A DNA stretch of 28,357 bases from a virus. How positions within the stretch are numbered: position 1 is the stretch's first letter; each line of letters begins with the position of its first letter. The notes below the pieces were generated by a model. That model did no database searches. It saw only the letters and a list, made by a program, of their open reading frames with translations, and was not told the DNA's origin. Made by a program: the position numbers and the translations under genes. The stretch covers positions 1 to 28,357 of the IMG/VR virus record IMGVR_UViG_3300007276_000219; one strand, written 5' to 3'. This document shows positions 407 through 13,099 of this stretch, piece by piece.

Positions 407-1204
407 TCACCTACCTCTTTGTTGCCCAAATGCCATAATATGCGGCCTTCCTGTAAAATTGTATCCATTGTCTGCACAAAACTCCATCACATCGCCATAA
501 TTTAAAAATAACGTTTCTGGCGTGTCTCCTGGGGGCATCACATACGTCTTATCTTTTGGGATACCCAATTCAGTTCTGAATTGTTCAATTTCATTCCAAG
601 CTTCTGGATCTCGTATTGGATTACAAACTGGCTTATAATGATAGTCGTTGTGATATGCAAGCATTTTCGTTATAGCATCACGATTCAATCTAAATTTATT
701 ATGTTGCTTTATAAATCGCTCGTCAACTTCAGGCTTTCTCATATTCCATTCTTCAGGAAATTTTGTACCTAATTTAGGTACTGAATTGGAGAATTTTGGG
801 GAGAGGCTAATTAAATGTATTGGTATATCAGTCTCAACAAATTGTCCACCTTCTGTCTCCATTGTAACAAACAAATTGTATTTAGTTGCCAAATACATAA
901 TCTCATTACAAATTCTAGGATGCATTGTTGGAGCACCGCCTGTGAGCATGATATCAGTCGCTTGGGGATTAGCTATAATATAATCCTCCACATCCTGTAA
1001 ACTAAATTTCCCCTTTTCAGGAGCAATTGAGCTATACCATGTATCACACCAACCTCCTTCTTCACCGAACCAACACCTGTGTGTACAACCTGTAGTGCGA
1101 ATCACTATATTTGGACGGCCCATACGAGAACCTTCTCCTTGGACTGCTCGGTATAATTCGTTAATAGGTTGTTTTTTTAAATAATCTTCTATTCGTTTAA
1201 TCAT
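407..1204 (-). CDS. queE: 7-carboxy-7-deazaguanine synthase-like radical SAM enzyme (QueE)
   Basis: 265 residues, near the usual size of QueE. QueE converts 6-carboxytetrahydropterin to 7-carboxy-7-deazaguanine, the committed precursor of queuosine and of 7-deazaguanine DNA modifications. Visible family signatures are the QGEG...G.P substrate region (residues 22-31), a cluster-binding cysteine set at C40, C44 and C53 followed by Asp-Thr, the TGGxPT motif near residue 90 that contacts SAM, and a later ETEGG motif. The cysteine spacing is CX3CX8C rather than CX3CX2C, so the cluster loop is enlarged. The start overlaps the stop of a 26-codon ORF by ATGA. No other pathway gene (folE, queD, queC or a DNA transglycosylase) lies in the window, so whether it serves tRNA or DNA modification is unknown. 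Confidence 0.85.
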   Translation of the reverse strand: MIKRIEDYLKKQPINELYRAVQGEGSRMGRPNIVIRTTGCTHRCWFGEEGGWCDTWYSSIAPEKGKFSLQDVEDYIIANPQATDIMLTGGAPTMHPRICNEIMYLATKYNLFVTMETEGGQFVETDIPIHLISLSPKFSNSVPKLGTKFPEEWNMRKPEVDERFIKQHNKFRLNRDAITKMLAYHNDYHYKPVCNPIRDPEAWNEIEQFRTELGIPKDKTYVMPPGDTPETLFLNYGDVMEFCADNGYNFTGRPHIMAFGQQRGR

Positions 1205-5686: not shown

Positions 5687-7081
5687 CTAAAATAAATTGT
5701 TTACTCGGTTCGAACTTGAACTTTTTTCAGTTTTTGTTGGCAGTTGTCCTAAACGCTTTCTAAGCATCTGCTTATCATATTCACTATCAGTCCGCATCGT
5801 GTTTGACACCTCCTTTCCGCGATCACTCGCCTCAGCATGAATATTGATATGACCCCGTGAAGTGTCCATATGTACTGGAAACGTCATCCCATCTATACCA
5901 AAACGATTCTTGATGATGTGTATCCTTGCTGTATTTGATAATTTGTCTTGCTGCTTTCTTGACAACGACAATACAAAATCTGCAGGAAATATTTTAGCAT
6001 ATGCTCCAGCGGCTTTATCAGCCTCAATAATATCACTATTCAATCCTTCCCGATTCGATTGGGAAACTGTCCAAACTGGCACTTGATACTCTCCTGCGAA
6101 TCCCCTTAGCTCCTCATACAACGCTTCTAATATTTCATGCTTTGCCATTTTACTGTTTCCAGATTTTAATAAATCGGCATAATCAATAATGACTACATCA
6201 GGTGGCATATCCAACATTTTCAATTTCGTTATATGGGATCGTATGCCCATCAATGATATGGACTTAGTCGGGTACCATTTAATAATTAACTCTCCTGGAA
6301 CATCTTTCAATGCCTTTTCAACTTTATCTACATGTAAATGTATTTTATCTAATGATATACCTGATAATATACAATCATACCGCCACCCTGTATAGTTTTC
6401 ACTCAACTCTAAAGTATAATGGACTACACGTTTTCCTTGCCGCATCGAATTTGCTCCTACTGCGGCTAAGAGCCAACTCTTCCCTGCTCCAGATGGTGCA
6501 ATTGCAACGGCTAGTTCTCCTGGACCAATCCCTCCTTTTGTAATTTCATCAATCACATCCCATCCAGTTGATATAGGTTGACGTGCATCTTCCATATATC
6601 GCTTTGGGATATCTTCAAAATAATTCAATCCAATATCTGTATCCATCCCTACTTTTAGGGCAGTGTCTACAAGCACCTTTATTGATTCATAATCACCTTT
6701 CTGTAATAATGGAACTGATTCTATTATTGCATTTTTCAACTCTTGATTTTTACAAAAGTCGACAGTTTTCTCTTTGATAAATTCCAAGTCGGTAGCCGTT
6801 GCTGACTTGCATGCTTCCTTCAATGTACTAATAACTTCCTGCTTTAACAAGTCATCAGTAATTGCATCAATGTCAACTTTCAATACTTCTAAAGTTGGCA
6901 CTCTTTTATACTTATCAAAATACGCTAAACTCTTATCAACTAGAAACGATACAGATTCAGATTCAAAATATTCCAATTTCAATAAGTCGTAAATCTGTCC
7001 GACAAACCCTGCGTCAATCATCAAGCAGGCAATTATTTTAGCTTGGAATTTGAATCCAAAATTTGAAATTTTATCGCTCAT
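5687..7081 (-). CDS. 41: Replicative DNA helicase, DnaB/gp41 family
   Basis: 464 residues, the usual length of DnaB-type helicases. The N-terminal helical domain occupies about residues 10-145. The RecA-like motor domain follows, with Walker A at residues 195-202 (APSGAGKS), a Walker B strand VVIIDYADLL, a later VSQSNRE segment (motif H3-like, sensing Gln) and a basic IKNRFG element near the C-terminus corresponding to the arginine-finger region of the family. It would unwind the fork on the lagging strand ahead of the phage polymerase. No primase (gp61) gene is in the window. It starts 9 bp after the 5' nuclease stop. The start context is AT-rich with no Shine-Dalgarno sequence. Confidence 0.92.
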   Translation of the reverse strand: MSDKISNFGFKFQAKIIACLMIDAGFVGQIYDLLKLEYFESESVSFLVDKSLAYFDKYKRVPTLEVLKVDIDAITDDLLKQEVISTLKEACKSATATDLEFIKEKTVDFCKNQELKNAIIESVPLLQKGDYESIKVLVDTALKVGMDTDIGLNYFEDIPKRYMEDARQPISTGWDVIDEITKGGIGPGELAVAIAPSGAGKSWLLAAVGANSMRQGKRVVHYTLELSENYTGWRYDCILSGISLDKIHLHVDKVEKALKDVPGELIIKWYPTKSISLMGIRSHITKLKMLDMPPDVVIIDYADLLKSGNSKMAKHEILEALYEELRGFAGEYQVPVWTVSQSNREGLNSDIIEADKAAGAYAKIFPADFVLSLSRKQQDKLSNTARIHIIKNRFGIDGMTFPVHMDTSRGHINIHAEASDRGKEVSNTMRTDSEYDKQMLRKRLGQLPTKTEKSSSSNRVNNLF

Positions 7082-7089
7082 ATGTTAAT

Positions 7090-8121
7090 TTATTGTTTAT
7101 TCCTTTTCGCGAAAATGTTAAGTCGGTTAAATGTATCTCGTAGCCAATTATCGACATTCTTTATATTTGCATACAATTTGTCGTCTAAAAATAACCGCCT
7201 AAAGATTTTACGGTTGATTGATTCTACTCCAGAATCCATTAAATCTTGGATTGCTAATTTGGAATGCCCAGGTATATCAACATCAGCTAATTGCATCAAT
7301 TTAAAATTGCGCTCCAACAATTCTTTGTTGCTTGCAATCTCTTTGAATATTTTCAATTTAGATCCATCAGCAACTAAACCTGCAGCTTTATCTATTATAT
7401 CGTCCGCCGTCATTGGTGTGTCGACAACTTCTGGGAATCGCTTTATCAAAGTCTTCAATCCAACTCCACTAATTCCTGGAATATTATCCGACGCATCACC
7501 TGACATCATTCTGTATAATAAGTAATTTTCTGTTAGAAGTCCAACCTCTTCCTCAATCTTCTCTTTAGTGTATAGTTTTTTCTTTGTTGGACTATACACT
7601 CGGACATCGTCATTTATCAACTGTAAGAAATCCCTATCAGTCGAAACAATTGTAACTTTATTATCTACATCCTTATAATATTGTTTAGTAATATATGCAA
7701 TAACATCATCAGCTTCAATATTATCTATGGTAATAATAGTCAACGGTAACACATCAAAATATTCTATAAGTCTTGTAAATTGGCGTTTCATTGAGGCTTG
7801 CTCATCAACCAAATCTTCAAACTCCTTATACCTATTTAATTTGTTTTTGTTTTTTCTATTACCTTTGTAGTCTGGGTATAACTTCCTCCTCCGCGATGAA
7901 CCGCCAGTTCCATCAAATACGATTATGCATCGCGTTGCTTGGAACTGGCGGATGTTTGAACCTACAGATTTAAGAAAGCCTATAACACCGCCGACGTGTT
8001 GCCCGTCATCGTTTAATGCTGGGACAGCACTGAATACTCGGATAAAGGTGTTTAGTCCGTCAATGATTAAAACATTACTATCTTGATTGGCTGGGCCAAT
8101 CCCTTTAGCTTGTTCAATCAT
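7090..8121 (-). CDS. rnh: 5'-3' exonuclease / RNase H of the T4 Rnh-FEN family
   Basis: 343 residues, similar to T4 RNase H (305). It removes RNA primers and flaps at Okazaki fragments. Metal-binding acidic motifs are in family order: LIIDGLNTF near the N-terminus, VFDG followed by the basic RRRKLYPDYKGNR segment, IEADDVIAY, STDRDFLQL, and SGDASDNIPGISGVGLKT, the helix-3-turn-helix DNA-binding motif. I chose the ATG at 8121. It is preceded by GTGAGGGAA, a good Shine-Dalgarno site, and lies just past the uvsX stop. An in-frame upstream ATG at 8202 would add 27 residues that overlap uvsX and look nothing like the family. Confidence 0.93.
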   Translation of the reverse strand: MIEQAKGIGPANQDSNVLIIDGLNTFIRVFSAVPALNDDGQHVGGVIGFLKSVGSNIRQFQATRCIIVFDGTGGSSRRRKLYPDYKGNRKNKNKLNRYKEFEDLVDEQASMKRQFTRLIEYFDVLPLTIITIDNIEADDVIAYITKQYYKDVDNKVTIVSTDRDFLQLINDDVRVYSPTKKKLYTKEKIEEEVGLLTENYLLYRMMSGDASDNIPGISGVGLKTLIKRFPEVVDTPMTADDIIDKAAGLVADGSKLKIFKEIASNKELLERNFKLMQLADVDIPGHSKLAIQDLMDSGVESINRKIFRRLFLDDKLYANIKNVDNWLRDTFNRLNIFAKRNKQ

Positions 8122-8140
8122 TTCCCTCACTTTGTCTATA

Positions 8141-9373
8141 CTATGCTTCTTCACTTGTAAATTCTTCGTCAATAGTAATATCTTCAATTCCAAAATCCTC
8201 ATTAACTTTATAGTTCATGATGATTCGATCGCAGATGAATCCATAATAAAACTCCCTAAGGGAAGGATTCGCTTCCATCCATTTAGCGAAGTCTTTACTT
8301 CTACATTTCCATTCACCATCAATCCTTTTCAACTCTGCAGTCTCAGGATTGATAATTTCGCCTTCATACGTTTTAGTAACAAAATTGCCATCTTTGTCTT
8401 TTTCTTTGACACTCTCATATGCCAATTTGAATGTCCAATAACCGCCTGATTTCGCTACCTTATAACTCTGTAATGTATGCAACCAACTTCCATAATTATC
8501 AATCCCTGATGAGAAATAAATTTCATAATCAGTAGATCGCAATGGCGGTCCCATTCTATTCTTCTGTACTATGCACCGCGTTTTAATACCGACGACTTGG
8601 TCGATGCCATGCTGTTTCATCTTAATCTGTCCTAAACTTTTCAATCGCAAACGCACACTAGCAGCGAAGGCAATTGCCTTACCTCCTGATGTCGTCCACG
8701 GGTCACCAAAACTTACACCCAATCGCTGCCTGAGTTGATTTGTAAAAATCAAACAAGCATTTTCACGTGCAATAGTATTAGGCAACTTCCGCATTGCTTT
8801 TGATAAGATAATAGCTTTGTCAGTAGCCCATCCATCTTTTCCCCACTCACCATTTAACTCATTTAATGTTGTAGCTCCCATGACGGAATCCACTACAATA
8901 GTTACAAGCGGCTTCTTTTTTGACTCTCTTGCCTTTACAATAATATTGTCAATAGCTCCGAAAATATCTTCCAATGCTTCCAACTGTAAATACAATAAGC
9001 TGTCTATATCAACACCGATCGCCTTCAAGTATTCTCTACTTGTTGCGGATTCAGTGTCAATATAAACTGCCAAGCCTCCCTGTTGTTGAGTACTTTTTAA
9101 AGCGTATGCGGCAAGTAAAGATTTCCCGGAGGCTTCTAATCCAGTTATCTCGACAATCCTGCCTGCTGGATATCCACCATGTGGGCGATTTGAGATTGCT
9201 AAATCCAATGTATCGCATCCTGTGCCTATCCAATCTGTCACCTCACTACCGCCTCCTGAATCTGAAAGTAAAGATGCAGCTTTATCGACGTGATGTTTAA
9301 ATTGTGTATTCAACGAAGATACTAATTCCTTGGCCAAGTCTTTCGTGACTTTGGCGTTCATCTTTTTTGCCAT
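8141..9373 (-). CDS. uvsX: Recombinase UvsX / RecA family
   Basis: 410 residues (T4 UvsX 391). It forms filaments on single-stranded DNA and drives strand exchange, recombination-dependent replication and repair. Walker A is at residues 78-85 (GLEASGKS), with a Walker B strand TIVVDSV. A segment with TNQLRQ, then GDPW, then GGKAIAFAASVRL corresponds to the RecA L2 loop and following helix. The C-terminus is acidic (DITIDEEFTSEEA), as expected for partner binding. The ATG at 9373 has no Shine-Dalgarno sequence; a second ATG follows four codons later. The downstream nuclease has its ribosome binding site just after this stop, and gp32 precedes it by 17 bp. Confidence 0.95.
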   Translation of the reverse strand: MAKKMNAKVTKDLAKELVSSLNTQFKHHVDKAASLLSDSGGGSEVTDWIGTGCDTLDLAISNRPHGGYPAGRIVEITGLEASGKSLLAAYALKSTQQQGGLAVYIDTESATSREYLKAIGVDIDSLLYLQLEALEDIFGAIDNIIVKARESKKKPLVTIVVDSVMGATTLNELNGEWGKDGWATDKAIILSKAMRKLPNTIARENACLIFTNQLRQRLGVSFGDPWTTSGGKAIAFAASVRLRLKSLGQIKMKQHGIDQVVGIKTRCIVQKNRMGPPLRSTDYEIYFSSGIDNYGSWLHTLQSYKVAKSGGYWTFKLAYESVKEKDKDGNFVTKTYEGEIINPETAELKRIDGEWKCRSKDFAKWMEANPSLREFYYGFICDRIIMNYKVNEDFGIEDITIDEEFTSEEA

Positions 9374-9389: not shown

Positions 9390-10193
9390 TTAAGAAAACA
9401 TGTCGTCAAATGCAGAATCAATATCAGCAGTCGCTGCAGCACCTTGTGGGCTTTGTATTGCGTCTATAGAATCATCTGCATCGCTTGAAACTGCAGCGGA
9501 GCTATTCGCAGACGTTTGATTTGGCGGCGTGGCGTCATCACTCTCTTCACCTTGATTGTTTAGGAATGCCTCAAATAAGCTTTCTAATTCTTGATAGGAT
9601 GGCGCTTCCCAAATATCTTGGATTGATGGCATTTCTTCCAACAGTTTAACAACTGCTTTATTAGTAGTAGCAGGAGTCGTGTTTGGCTTCACTCTAAAGT
9701 TTGTCTTAGGGTAGCCGTCTTTCGGTCTTTCATAATCAACCGTGATGTCTCTACCGTTTTTAAGATCGGTAATGTCACCATAATCGGGATCGTCAATTGT
9801 TTTCAACAACTCTTCATAGACAGTCTTTCCAAAGCCCCACATTTTCACACCTTCTTCTTCTTTGCCTCTCACCAATACTGGAACATATGTTCGCATCTTT
9901 GGTTCAATTTTACGGGCAAATAACCAATCTTCCTTCTCGCCAGTTGCTTTCAAAGCATCTGCCTTTTCTTGAATTGGATCTGGGTTTCCGAAGTTTTGAG
10001 GGGAAATAATTGTACGTTTTGCTAAGTCATAATAGAATAGCAATTCTTGGAATGGCCAATCTCGGTCGTGCATATAAGGAACTATACGAATCACTTGCGA
10101 TCCTTCTTCTGGTTTCCAAATCACTTTAGTACCTGAGCCTTGGCCTTGTCTGTTAAGTGTGTCTAATTTCTGACGAATTTTGTTTAAATCCAT
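9390..10193 (-). CDS. 32: Single-stranded DNA-binding protein gp32-like, without zinc cysteines
   Basis: 267 residues (T4 gp32 301). The core contains WKPEEGSQVIRIVPY, a WPFQELLFYY segment, KMRTYVPVLVRG, WGFGKTVYEELL, DPDYGDITDLKNGRDITVDY and a YPKTNFRVKPN segment, the order seen in marine T4-type gp32 proteins. The C-terminal 60 residues are Ser/Ala/Asp-rich and disordered and end in DIDSAFDDMFS, the acidic tail that recruits replication partners. The protein has no cysteine at all, so the His-Cys3 zinc site of T4 gp32 is missing. A promoter-like element with a roughly 30-nt leader precedes the gene, which fits separate strong expression. Confidence 0.93.
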   Translation of the reverse strand: MDLNKIRQKLDTLNRQGQGSGTKVIWKPEEGSQVIRIVPYMHDRDWPFQELLFYYDLAKRTIISPQNFGNPDPIQEKADALKATGEKEDWLFARKIEPKMRTYVPVLVRGKEEEGVKMWGFGKTVYEELLKTIDDPDYGDITDLKNGRDITVDYERPKDGYPKTNFRVKPNTTPATTNKAVVKLLEEMPSIQDIWEAPSYQELESLFEAFLNNQGEESDDATPPNQTSANSSAAVSSDADDSIDAIQSPQGAAATADIDSAFDDMFS

Positions 10194-10274: not shown

Positions 10275-10664
10275 TTAATTTGTAATTTTGTGTATTTTTT
10301 CTAACCTAAGTGGAATATGAGCCAATTCAGACCCTTGAGATAATATTAATGTATTTGTATAATTATCCCATGGAATCTGCATGCTCATATCTAGTATCCC
10401 GTTATTCATTTGTTTTATTATGTCGTTAAGTGCGTTAATTGTATATAAAGTATTTGTGTCTGATTTTCTATGTATTAATATAGTATTGGAAGTTAAGTTG
10501 TAATTACCGACTACATTATATGTACAATACAGTTGGTACGGTTTCTGCACGTGGCTCAGTACGAATATTACATTTGTATCAAGTTTATAAGTCGCAGGTA
10601 TGAATTCTAATATCATACCTAAATCATTTTTATGTACAAAAGTACAAAGTAAATTCGCCTTCAT
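10275..10664 (-). CDS. Hypothetical protein upstream of gp32, 129 aa
   Basis: A 129-residue soluble protein of mixed alpha/beta character. It has hydrophobic strands (VIFVLSHV, LYCTYNVVGNY, NTILIHRK) and a NTLYTINALNDIIK segment. It looks like a conserved small phage protein, but I cannot name its family. It lies between the 367-aa gene (16 bp) and the promoter of gp32, so it belongs at the end of the polymerase transcript. No membrane segment, signal peptide or catalytic motif is visible. Confidence 0.75.
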   Translation of the reverse strand: MKANLLCTFVHKNDLGMILEFIPATYKLDTNVIFVLSHVQKPYQLYCTYNVVGNYNLTSNTILIHRKSDTNTLYTINALNDIIKQMNNGILDMSMQIPWDNYTNTLILSQGSELAHIPLRLEKIHKITN

Positions 10665-10679
10665 TCATTTTCCCACGTA

Positions 10680-11783
10680 TTAGTCAATGATCTCTTTATG
10701 TATCTTGGATGCATTTACCCATAAGTGCAATCCTTTAAAATTAGATACAGCAGTTGTAACTTGATTGTTCTTACATAAAAGTGGCTCAAGTACTTCATCT
10801 GCAGATTCTATGTATACTTTACTACCTATAATGATGCCCCACCAATCAACTGATTTGATTTTCCTAGTGAGCATCGCATCAACATGATTACACATGGATG
10901 TTGCAATATCGGATGGATCTGCACCATTTAACATCTTCGCAATTTTTTCTGTAACACGCTTAATGAATTTAAGTTCAGTGTCTCGAGATAATGCTAGTAG
11001 TCCATTAATATCAGCAATCACTTCTGGATCTTGTAATGATGATAATACATCATTTACACCGACCCTACCAACTGATGCTGTAATTGATTTGCCAGTTAAC
11101 AAACTTCCTAAATTAAGCATTGTTTTAAATGTCCTAGTGAAGTCTGGAGATAATGATCCGAAATCCACAGAGCCAAGTCTCTTATAATTCTTGAGAGACA
11201 CACCGTCACCGTCTACATCAACATCACTAACAATACCAGTATCACCTGCGACGCCGCCTTTAATTTCACCATCATGTATTATTGCAAACCATAACTCTGA
11301 AAAATGACCGTTTGGGATTTTTATCGTACGTTTAATTATATCAAATAATGTACGTTCATGTTTCCCCATTGTATATGAACCAGTACTAAGTTTACGTTTT
11401 GTATTCTGACCGATGATTTTAACTATCGACTGACGGACGGAGGGGCTTAGTGCTATTACTTCTGCAAACATCCCTTCTAATCCAAGTACATCCTGGCCTG
11501 GCATCACATATGTACTGTCCATATATTTTTTGAATGCGTCAACGCTCATCAACCAAGGCTGTGATTTAGCAATAAATCTATCATCTGCTGAATCGTCAGC
11601 CTTGCCATCCTTATCTACATCCTTTTCTGTTAATGCATCAATAACTGGACGCGATTCGATACCTTTCGATTCTAATATGTTTTCAAGTATTTGTAATTCA
11701 GATATAGTATACGGCTTCTGTGCATATCCTTTTGGTAAATGCGCAAACCATTCATTCATTAAGTTTTCGATATTCATAATCAT
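10680..11783 (-). CDS. Hypothetical protein with two acidic DxDxDG-type loops, 367 aa
   Basis: The family is not recognised. Two loops resemble calcium-binding EF-hand/dockerin loops: residues 55-68 (DVDKDGKADDSADD) and residues 187-194 (DVDVDGDG). The second loop is followed at once by VSLKNY (S196-L-K198), so Asp residues, a strand and SLK occur in an order that could also be a PD-(D/E)xK nuclease core with Ser replacing the usual acid. Either reading is inference. A helical region (about 205-300) and a mixed C-terminus follow. Its ATGA start overlaps the polymerase stop by 4 nt, so the two are translationally coupled and it may work with the polymerase or be packaged in the virion. A second ATG lies two codons in. 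Confidence 0.75.
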   Translation of the reverse strand: MIMNIENLMNEWFAHLPKGYAQKPYTISELQILENILESKGIESRPVIDALTEKDVDKDGKADDSADDRFIAKSQPWLMSVDAFKKYMDSTYVMPGQDVLGLEGMFAEVIALSPSVRQSIVKIIGQNTKRKLSTGSYTMGKHERTLFDIIKRTIKIPNGHFSELWFAIIHDGEIKGGVAGDTGIVSDVDVDGDGVSLKNYKRLGSVDFGSLSPDFTRTFKTMLNLGSLLTGKSITASVGRVGVNDVLSSLQDPEVIADINGLLALSRDTELKFIKRVTEKIAKMLNGADPSDIATSMCNHVDAMLTRKIKSVDWWGIIIGSKVYIESADEVLEPLLCKNNQVTTAVSNFKGLHLWVNASKIHKEIID

Positions 11784-13099
11784 TTTTTATATTTTTTAGG
11801 TGTAACCATATTATGATAATCACGTCCCATCTTTAAACTAACCTTCATGTTGAATTGATTTAAGATAGTTTTAATATCATCTATAAACGATTTACCGTCT
11901 CGTCTATCATATACAAAAAGGAACGAGTCATATGTGTACAGTATTAACTCACTGTATTTATCATATAAATATTCCAATACGTGGCGTAACATTAAGGAGT
12001 TCACTTCTGTTTCATATGCTTGTAAAATGTAATTGAATAACTTGTTAGCAGACATATCCTCGAAGTTCTTTGAATATATCTTCCTACTACTCATTGGCAC
12101 TTTAACATACCCAACTCGCTTGAAATCTGCCCACAACCGCTCACGAAATTTATGTACATGTTTAAAGAATCTAATATGTTTATATTCGTGCGGTATTGTA
12201 CCATACAACATTCTGAATGTTAACCCCTTCGATTCCTCATACTCCTTTGGGCTAATCATTGGTGTGTTAAAATATTGACGTCCGAAATAGTGGTGTAAAT
12301 TGCCTGGAGGTAATTTGTATCCAATCAACCTTGCGACTAATTTAACGTGATAACTATCATAATCGAAATCAATCAACATTCGATCACCAGTTGGCGTAAT
12401 CATTGACCGCTCCCCATTGGACTTGTTTAACGCTGCAAAATTTATACCACCAAATCTATTACTCGGCCTACCTGTTGATGTATATGGGAAATATTCTGTA
12501 TATAATACATCCCTCTTAATATTATGGAAATGCTCCAATACATTAGAGTTGATTGGCAAGCCTGCGTTTTCTAATTTGAAATAGTTATCCAATACAATAT
12601 CATTATAAAATTGTAATGTTTTATCGAAATCAATATTCGGCAAGCATTTTTTAAAGTTCTCAACAATCATTTGACACAATGGTATAAATACAACTACTGG
12701 AACTATATTATTAATATCTGATGCAGTCCTGTACCATTGGTGATAAACTGTTATTTCTGACGACTCGGCCACATCAATCGGTGTATTATATTGTAACCAA
12801 TAACATAAATCGACATCATAACATTTAACGCCACGTTGCCTTAATACATTTGAACTCCAGCAGAAAGTATTCTCAGGCCATTCAACGTTCTGAATCCATT
12901 CTTCACCATTCTGATGCAAATCGTTATGAGTGCAGCCGATTAAGAATTCTTCACCATTGTTCAAGTTTTGTATGTATATGAAACTTATAGTATTCTCCAA
13001 TCTATGTAAACGATGATCGGCTTGAATAGGCACAACAAGTATGTCAGACCCTTTTAGAGCAAGCCAATCAATCCCAGTATAATCGTCTACAAACGTCAT
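11780..13099 (-). CDS. Compact, divergent family A DNA polymerase
   Basis: 439 residues. The palm and fingers motifs of family A are in order: STGR (207-211); motif A with D246 (Klenow D705) in DFDYDSYHVKLVARL; LHHYFG (267-273), supplying the H734 equivalent; the O-helix K291-x3-F295-x3-Y299-G300, the exact K758/F762/Y766 spacing; N356-x3-Q360 (N845/Q849); and motif C Y390-D391-S392 (HDE in Klenow). Unusual replacements are His251 for the E710 steric-gate glutamate, Tyr287 for R754, Lys253 for R712, and YDS for HDE. Only about 20 residues separate the LENAGLPI helix from TGR, where Klenow has over 100, so the thumb is essentially missing. Residues 1-140 may be a worn 3'-5' exonuclease fold without its acidic residues. 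It probably replaces T4 gp43. Confidence 0.85.
   Translation of the reverse strand: MTFVDDYTGIDWLALKGSDILVVPIQADHRLHRLENTISFIYIQNLNNGEEFLIGCTHNDLHQNGEEWIQNVEWPENTFCWSSNVLRQRGVKCYDVDLCYWLQYNTPIDVAESSEITVYHQWYRTASDINNIVPVVVFIPLCQMIVENFKKCLPNIDFDKTLQFYNDIVLDNYFKLENAGLPINSNVLEHFHNIKRDVLYTEYFPYTSTGRPSNRFGGINFAALNKSNGERSMITPTGDRMLIDFDYDSYHVKLVARLIGYKLPPGNLHHYFGRQYFNTPMISPKEYEESKGLTFRMLYGTIPHEYKHIRFFKHVHKFRERLWADFKRVGYVKVPMSSRKIYSKNFEDMSANKLFNYILQAYETEVNSLMLRHVLEYLYDKYSELILYTYDSFLFVYDRRDGKSFIDDIKTILNQFNMKVSLKMGRDYHNMVTPKKYKK

Follow-up and report, generated by a model that had tools for sequence, protein, structure and literature searches.

A lineage of divergent family A DNA polymerases, divPolA1, has been described from Flavobacterium phage immuto and related phages, 14 in all (Yutin et al., 2024; PMC11348598). 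In these proteins the palm is kept, the thumb is truncated and the exonuclease is dead, and a replication gene cluster is conserved downstream; the phages also encode a regular polymerase, which may belong to family A, B or C, and DNA polymerase activity of divPolA1 has been proposed, not demonstrated (PMC11348598). The replication-like gene context goes with divPolA1, not with the regular polymerase, and was read by Yutin et al. to mean that divPolA1 acts in replication (PMC11348598). A second divergent family A polymerase, divPolA2 of barbaviruses, likewise has no normal thumb, but differs from divPolA1 in its unrelated N-terminal domain and its variable gene neighbourhood (PMC11348598). In the literature that we searched, the name divPolA1 occurs only in Yutin et al. 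(2024) and its preprint. Here we analyse a divPolA1-type gene in an IMG/VR virus record of 28,357 nucleotides (IMGVR_UViG_3300007276_000219), the whole of which we refer to as the window. The window protein resembles the immuto-group proteins (PMC11348598) in full-length homology, truncated thumb, dead exonuclease-like domain, kept palm residues and downstream cluster. We conclude that it belongs to an already-described family; what is new here is the scale of that family, a corrected active-site signature and strict linkage to a small neighbouring gene, p129.

The gene is an open reading frame without interruption at positions 11780-13099 of the window, minus strand, and encodes a divPolA1-type family A DNA polymerase of 439 aa, identified by profile, alignment and AlphaFold model. 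Its domains, with approximate limits, are a putatively dead exonuclease-like domain (residues ~1-155), a thumb remnant (~160-203), and palm and fingers (~204-435). The initial annotation had recognised motifs in family A order in this short protein (STGR, D246, K-x3-F-x3-Y-G, N-x3-Q and D391), and each lies where it was placed and aligns to Pol I. Taken alone, the window protein matches Pfam DNA_pol_A weakly (E 0.0072, below the curated cut-off), and phmmer gave no PDB match; the same Pfam model is matched by 44 of 46 relatives scanned (best E 1.8e-12), and Klenow is matched by the divPolA1 family profile (E 2.7e-8). The AlphaFold model of the window protein (46 sequences; mean pLDDT 92.1, pTM 0.88) contains a palm that carries motifs A, B and C, including the two catalytic Asp residues, and the residues named from the sequence align with those of Klenow. 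In a PDB fold search with this model the best 50 matches were all family A DNA polymerases (E ~4e-14 to 5e-16) and included no RNA polymerase; the highest TM-score, query-normalised, was 0.73 (Klenow 1d8y and Bst 3eyz). Marks of family B were sought in the 439-aa protein and neither SLYPS nor DTDS was found, and Pfam gives DNA_pol_A only. Given the matches of the relatives, of the profile and of the predicted model, the family A assignment is more than chance, and membership of the window protein in divPolA1 is near certain.

The family is large and, so far as our searches reach, viral. In a search of phage records, the window protein matched immuto gp001 with 30.3% identity over 89% of its length (E 7e-49), the homologue of Microcystis phage Mel-JY01 with 26.5% identity, and that of LR756508, a 484-kb uncultured phage, with 37% identity over 63% of the query; no barbavirus match appeared in that search. 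In the family tree the window protein shares a branch, separate from immuto, with a protein 57% identical to it (L019). A single-sequence pattern search for relatives found none; an alignment-based scan of IMG/VR found, and we confirmed, at least 583. Across 84,980 prokaryote genomes there were only six matches, all on MAG contigs that are probably phage, three of them labelled Flavobacteriales, Flavobacteriaceae or Winogradskyella, and we therefore regard divPolA1 as a viral family. With at least 583 relatives in IMG/VR as against 14 published genomes, divPolA1 is far commoner than reported, and many T4-like phages of aquatic habitats have it.

The overall arrangement of exonuclease-like domain, palm and fingers is that of E. 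coli Pol I and Klenow, and the window model aligns with Klenow along its length, the exonuclease-like part included. As the initial annotation had stated, there is almost no thumb: from G180 (in LENAGLPI) to T209 (in TGR) the window protein has 29 residues, as compared to 122 in the equivalent segment of E. coli Pol I, and across 78 relatives the span is 18-36 residues, with a median of 28. The window protein thus falls well short of a canonical Pol I-type thumb (~100 residues). The accompanying suggestion of a dead exonuclease domain is also borne out: the first strand of the exonuclease-like domain carries P24 in 97% of sequences and no D-x-E. The sole near-invariant acidic residue of a single type in this part is D95 (Asn in 4 of 78 sequences), and the positions that mix Asp and Glu (5, 9, 51, 60 and 67) all lie outside the D-x-E strand. 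On alignment and model, we conclude that the N-terminal domain is a 3'-5' exonuclease-like domain whose catalytic acids are replaced and which is predicted to be dead. Pol I also differs from the window polymerase in having a 5' nuclease domain of its own; in the window, a 5' nuclease is encoded by a separate gene of the same cluster.

The active-site signature was read from an alignment of 78 sequences, which fall into 63 clusters at 90% identity and have a median identity of 37%. R211, D246, H251, F295, G300, Q360, E363, Y388, Y390 and D391 are invariant in all 78, and K291 and Y299 are each kept in 77. Motif A, D246-Y-D248 (12356-12364, minus strand), aligns to Klenow with D246 at Pol I D705; the codon for H251, the residue that replaces E710, is at 12347-12349 (minus strand). 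Motif B, the O helix, Y287-x3-K291-x3-F295-x3-Y299-G300 (12200-12241, minus strand), places Y287 at R754, K291 at K758, F295 at F762 and Y299-G300 at Y766. Motif C, Y390-D391-S392 (11924-11932, minus strand), places Y390-D391 at H881-D882, so that Tyr replaces H881; all sequences have Ser or Ala directly after D391. The remaining Pol I equivalents are R668 for STGR, R712 for K253, N845 for N356 and Q849 for Q360. Relative to E. coli Pol I, then, the window protein keeps R668, D705, K758, F762, Y766, N845, Q849 and D882, and changes E710 to H, H881 to Y, E883 to S and R754 to Y, in addition to losing the exonuclease acids.

The replacements at E710 and of HDE by YDS had been proposed from the single sequence, and both hold across the family, the second as YDS or YDA. 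Because the scan patterns could themselves have imposed H251 or Y390, we checked each separately: H251 was present in 11 of 11 loci matching the motif C pattern alone, and Y390 together with D391 in every full-length locus matching the motif A pattern alone. The further proposals, Tyr for R754 and Lys for R712, are correct for the window protein but do not extend to the family. Position 287 is Tyr in 59 sequences and Arg in 18 of the 78; the Arg-287 sequences form one cluster nested among the Tyr-287 ones, which requires a minimum of two changes (the deep branches of the tree are unsure). Tyr at this position was therefore rejected as a universal divPolA1 trait, and Arg was probably regained. 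K253 is a minor variant, the R712 equivalent being Arg in 76 of 78. In family A enzymes a network formed by R668, Q849 and H881 secures the primer end as well as the catalytic Asp, and changes of Pol I H881 cost about tenfold in kcat (PMC11122685). In divPolA1 the Arg and Gln of this network are kept as R211 and Q360, as is its Asp, and H251 and Y390 stand in place of E710 and H881. We conclude that the family signature, as read from the alignment and new here, is replacement of Glu710 by His and of His881 by Tyr, with Arg668 and Gln849 kept.

The same gene order surrounds divPolA1 in the window, in immuto, Mel-JY01 and LR756508, and in dozens of loci from IMG/VR. Tail and baseplate genes (p176, p102, which has a weak gp53 match, and p644) and p188 are followed by divPolA1, in most loci an intervening gene, p129, gp32, UvsX, the 5' nuclease and DnaB. 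In the window these are, all on the minus strand, p367 (10680-11783), p129 (10275-10664), a gp32-like single-strand binding protein (9390-10193; Pfam PF08804, E 1.2e-14), a UvsX/RecA-type recombinase (8141-9373; PF00154, E 7.8e-53; phrog_97), a 5'-3' exonuclease of the T4 RNase H or Pol I 5'-nuclease type (7090-8202; PF02739, E 2.5e-34) and a DnaB/gp41-type replicative helicase (5687-7081; PF03796, phrog_19). The neighbourhood is shared with T4, which has gp32, UvsX, an RNase H-type nuclease and a gp41-type helicase; T4 gp43, in contrast, is a family B polymerase and the window enzyme a family A polymerase, the window's relatives carrying a family B polymerase elsewhere in the genome.

The intervening gene of the window encodes p367, a protein of 367 aa whose translational coupling to divPolA1, through an ATGA overlap with the divPolA1 stop, had been correctly called; the same four bases occur in 31 of the 62 intervening ORFs listed. 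Most products of the intervening gene share a short N-terminal motif, EWxxxLxKGY (EWxYRLxKGYP-like), and, bar a few unrelated small ORFs, they range from ~340 to 790 aa in relatives. In twelve loci the gene is absent and p129 directly follows divPolA1. Some variants were seen on single or few contigs: two p367-type genes in tandem (L020:1117-3391); a 182-aa ORF between divPolA1 and the p367-type gene on three contigs (L028:7337, L029:7341 and L032:1187), with a ferritin/DPS-like look only (AEEYxAHYFYRGAxNWCQGVGY); and short ORFs just downstream of divPolA1 that by eye resemble HNH or GIY-YIG homing endonucleases (L080:7194 and L088:7470).

Linkage to p129 is strict in both directions. Wherever a divPolA1 locus extends 2.5 kb or more downstream, p129 is present (62 of 62), and in a reverse search divPolA1 was present wherever a p129 locus extends 3 kb or more upstream (42 of 42). 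Of 50,697 phage records, six carry divPolA1 and the same six carry p129; four of them are near-identical immuto records. The product of p129 is predicted to be a compact alpha/beta protein (pLDDT 95.9) and gave no convincing match to Pfam, PHROGs, PDB sequences or PDB folds; its signature is an invariant HR followed by KK in 90% or more of sequences, and a conserved NxxYxxNxxN.

The complete relatives and most of the long contigs carry a regular, full-size polymerase in addition to divPolA1. In immuto it is a family A polymerase of 777 aa with, as read by eye, motifs A, B and C and an intact-looking DTETTGL exonuclease motif; in Mel-JY01 it is a PolB ORF of 855 aa, with a clamp loader one ORF downstream (phrog_168, E 1.5e-75). 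A PolB of 835-859 aa is present in eight of ten long divPolA1-bearing IMG/VR contigs, including all six of at least 90 kb; none of the ten has a second family A match, and none matches family C. Five PolBs were read, and all have SLYPS or MYPS, NSxYG, DTDS and the DIE exonuclease motif in intact form. A search for a T4-type clamp with PF02916 returned no match anywhere, controls included. As a separate observation, LR756508.1 (L004; record positions 47415-48068, 260623-262308 and 266583-266900) has PolB matches in two ORFs, of 1022 and 625 aa, and a family C match in a 575-aa ORF, alongside divPolA1; its PolB is perhaps split or interrupted, and the genome perhaps holds three polymerase families.

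As in the immuto group, divPolA1 in the window phage would be second to a regular polymerase: because the window record is only a 28-kb fragment, within which no regular polymerase was seen, we infer this second enzyme, lying outside the fragment, from the relatives. With a separate full-size polymerase in three complete relatives and in most of the long contigs, the idea that the 439-aa protein stands in for gp43 as replicase finds no support. The precedent offered for it, that Rhodothermus phage RM378 is a T4 relative with a family A enzyme, also failed: RM378 encodes a family B polymerase, and one ORF is a B-type exonuclease; PF00476 has no match in the genome, and the 313-aa ORF annotated there as 'DNA polymerase' is matched by models of family B.

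We consider it probable that divPolA1 is an active, distributive accessory DNA polymerase that makes short tracts beside a full-size replicase. Because D246, D391, R211, Q360 and F295 never vary, and K291 and Y299 almost never, at a median identity of only 37%, we infer that divPolA1 is catalytically active. With no thumb and no proofreading, it would be distributive and a poor enzyme for copying 150-190 kb; the single-strand binding protein, recombinase, 5' nuclease and helicase encoded beside it fit short synthesis at gaps, primer-removal sites and D-loops; and the swapping of the regular polymerase between families while divPolA1 is kept (PMC11348598) fits a specialised, partner-bound role. 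According to this proposal, the full-size PolB or PolA would copy the genome, and divPolA1, as a low-processivity DNA polymerase, would fill gaps once the 5' nuclease has removed primers and would extend UvsX-made D-loops on gp32-coated DNA. The arrangement would amount to a kind of split Pol I, with its 5' nuclease encoded apart, at 7090-8202, and the missing grip on DNA would probably be supplied by a partner.

We think it improbable that the roles are reversed, with divPolA1 as the main replicase, its processivity supplied by p129, p367 or gp32, and the full-size enzyme as accessory. It is true, and counts against the reading that we favour, that divPolA1 is the polymerase that adjoins gp32, UvsX, the 5' nuclease and the helicase, and that regular polymerases sit in mixed neighbourhoods (PMC11348598); but divPolA1 lacks a proofreading site and nearly all of the thumb, the same genomes retain full-size polymerases whose motifs are intact, one of them near a clamp loader, and the regular polymerase is swapped among families A, B and C, as expected of a generic bulk job (PMC11348598). 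Less probable again is that divPolA1 uses ribonucleotides or extends RNA primers, in a primase-like or primer-extending role, with sugar selection relaxed by His in place of Glu710 and by loss of the Glu after the catalytic Asp. Both changes run through all 78 sequences and depart from the DNA polymerase pattern, and a helicase cluster adjoins the gene; yet the bulky His could still serve as a steric gate, every one of the 50 best structural matches is a DNA polymerase, and a primase role is made less likely by the Toprim_2 (primase-type) proteins of ~314-318 aa present in two of the three complete relatives, immuto and LR756508. A Toprim_2 protein was not detected in Mel-JY01, and the DNAG_N model had no match in immuto, Mel-JY01 or LR756508. 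Least probable is that divPolA1 is a catalytically dead relic serving as a scaffold in the replication cluster, since, even with the thumb and exonuclease site gone, H881 replaced and R754 replaced too in most members, both metal-binding Asp residues and the nucleotide-binding K, F, Y, R and Q, needless for a scaffold, are kept despite deep divergence.

For an accessory polymerase of the kind that we favour, the best candidate partner is p129, because it is always present; the 367-aa protein, suggested in the initial annotation, loses that place with its variable length and its absence from some loci. A bolder version, which we regard as unlikely, is that the polymerase is an obligate pair of divPolA1 and p129: p129, alone or with p367, would act as the thumb, and the rewired site (His for Glu710, Tyr for His881) would confer a specificity for substrate or primer that no characterised family A enzyme has. 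In T4, the gene for the repressor regA adjoins gene 43. By analogy, p129 could be a regulator.

What was known from 14 genomes as a curiosity is now a common family with a fixed, rewired site and a strictly linked small neighbour. The family raises the questions of how a family A enzyme can function with no thumb and of why a second polymerase is retained in the core of the recombination-replication operon by phages already equipped with a full replicase; these are directly testable, because immuto phages grow on cultured Flavobacterium. As a minor observation outside the replication cluster, the window encodes a QueE-like radical SAM protein (407-1204, minus strand), and immuto has a fuller 7-deazaguanine set, with DpdA; by analogy, 7-deazaguanine DNA modification is possible in the window phage too.
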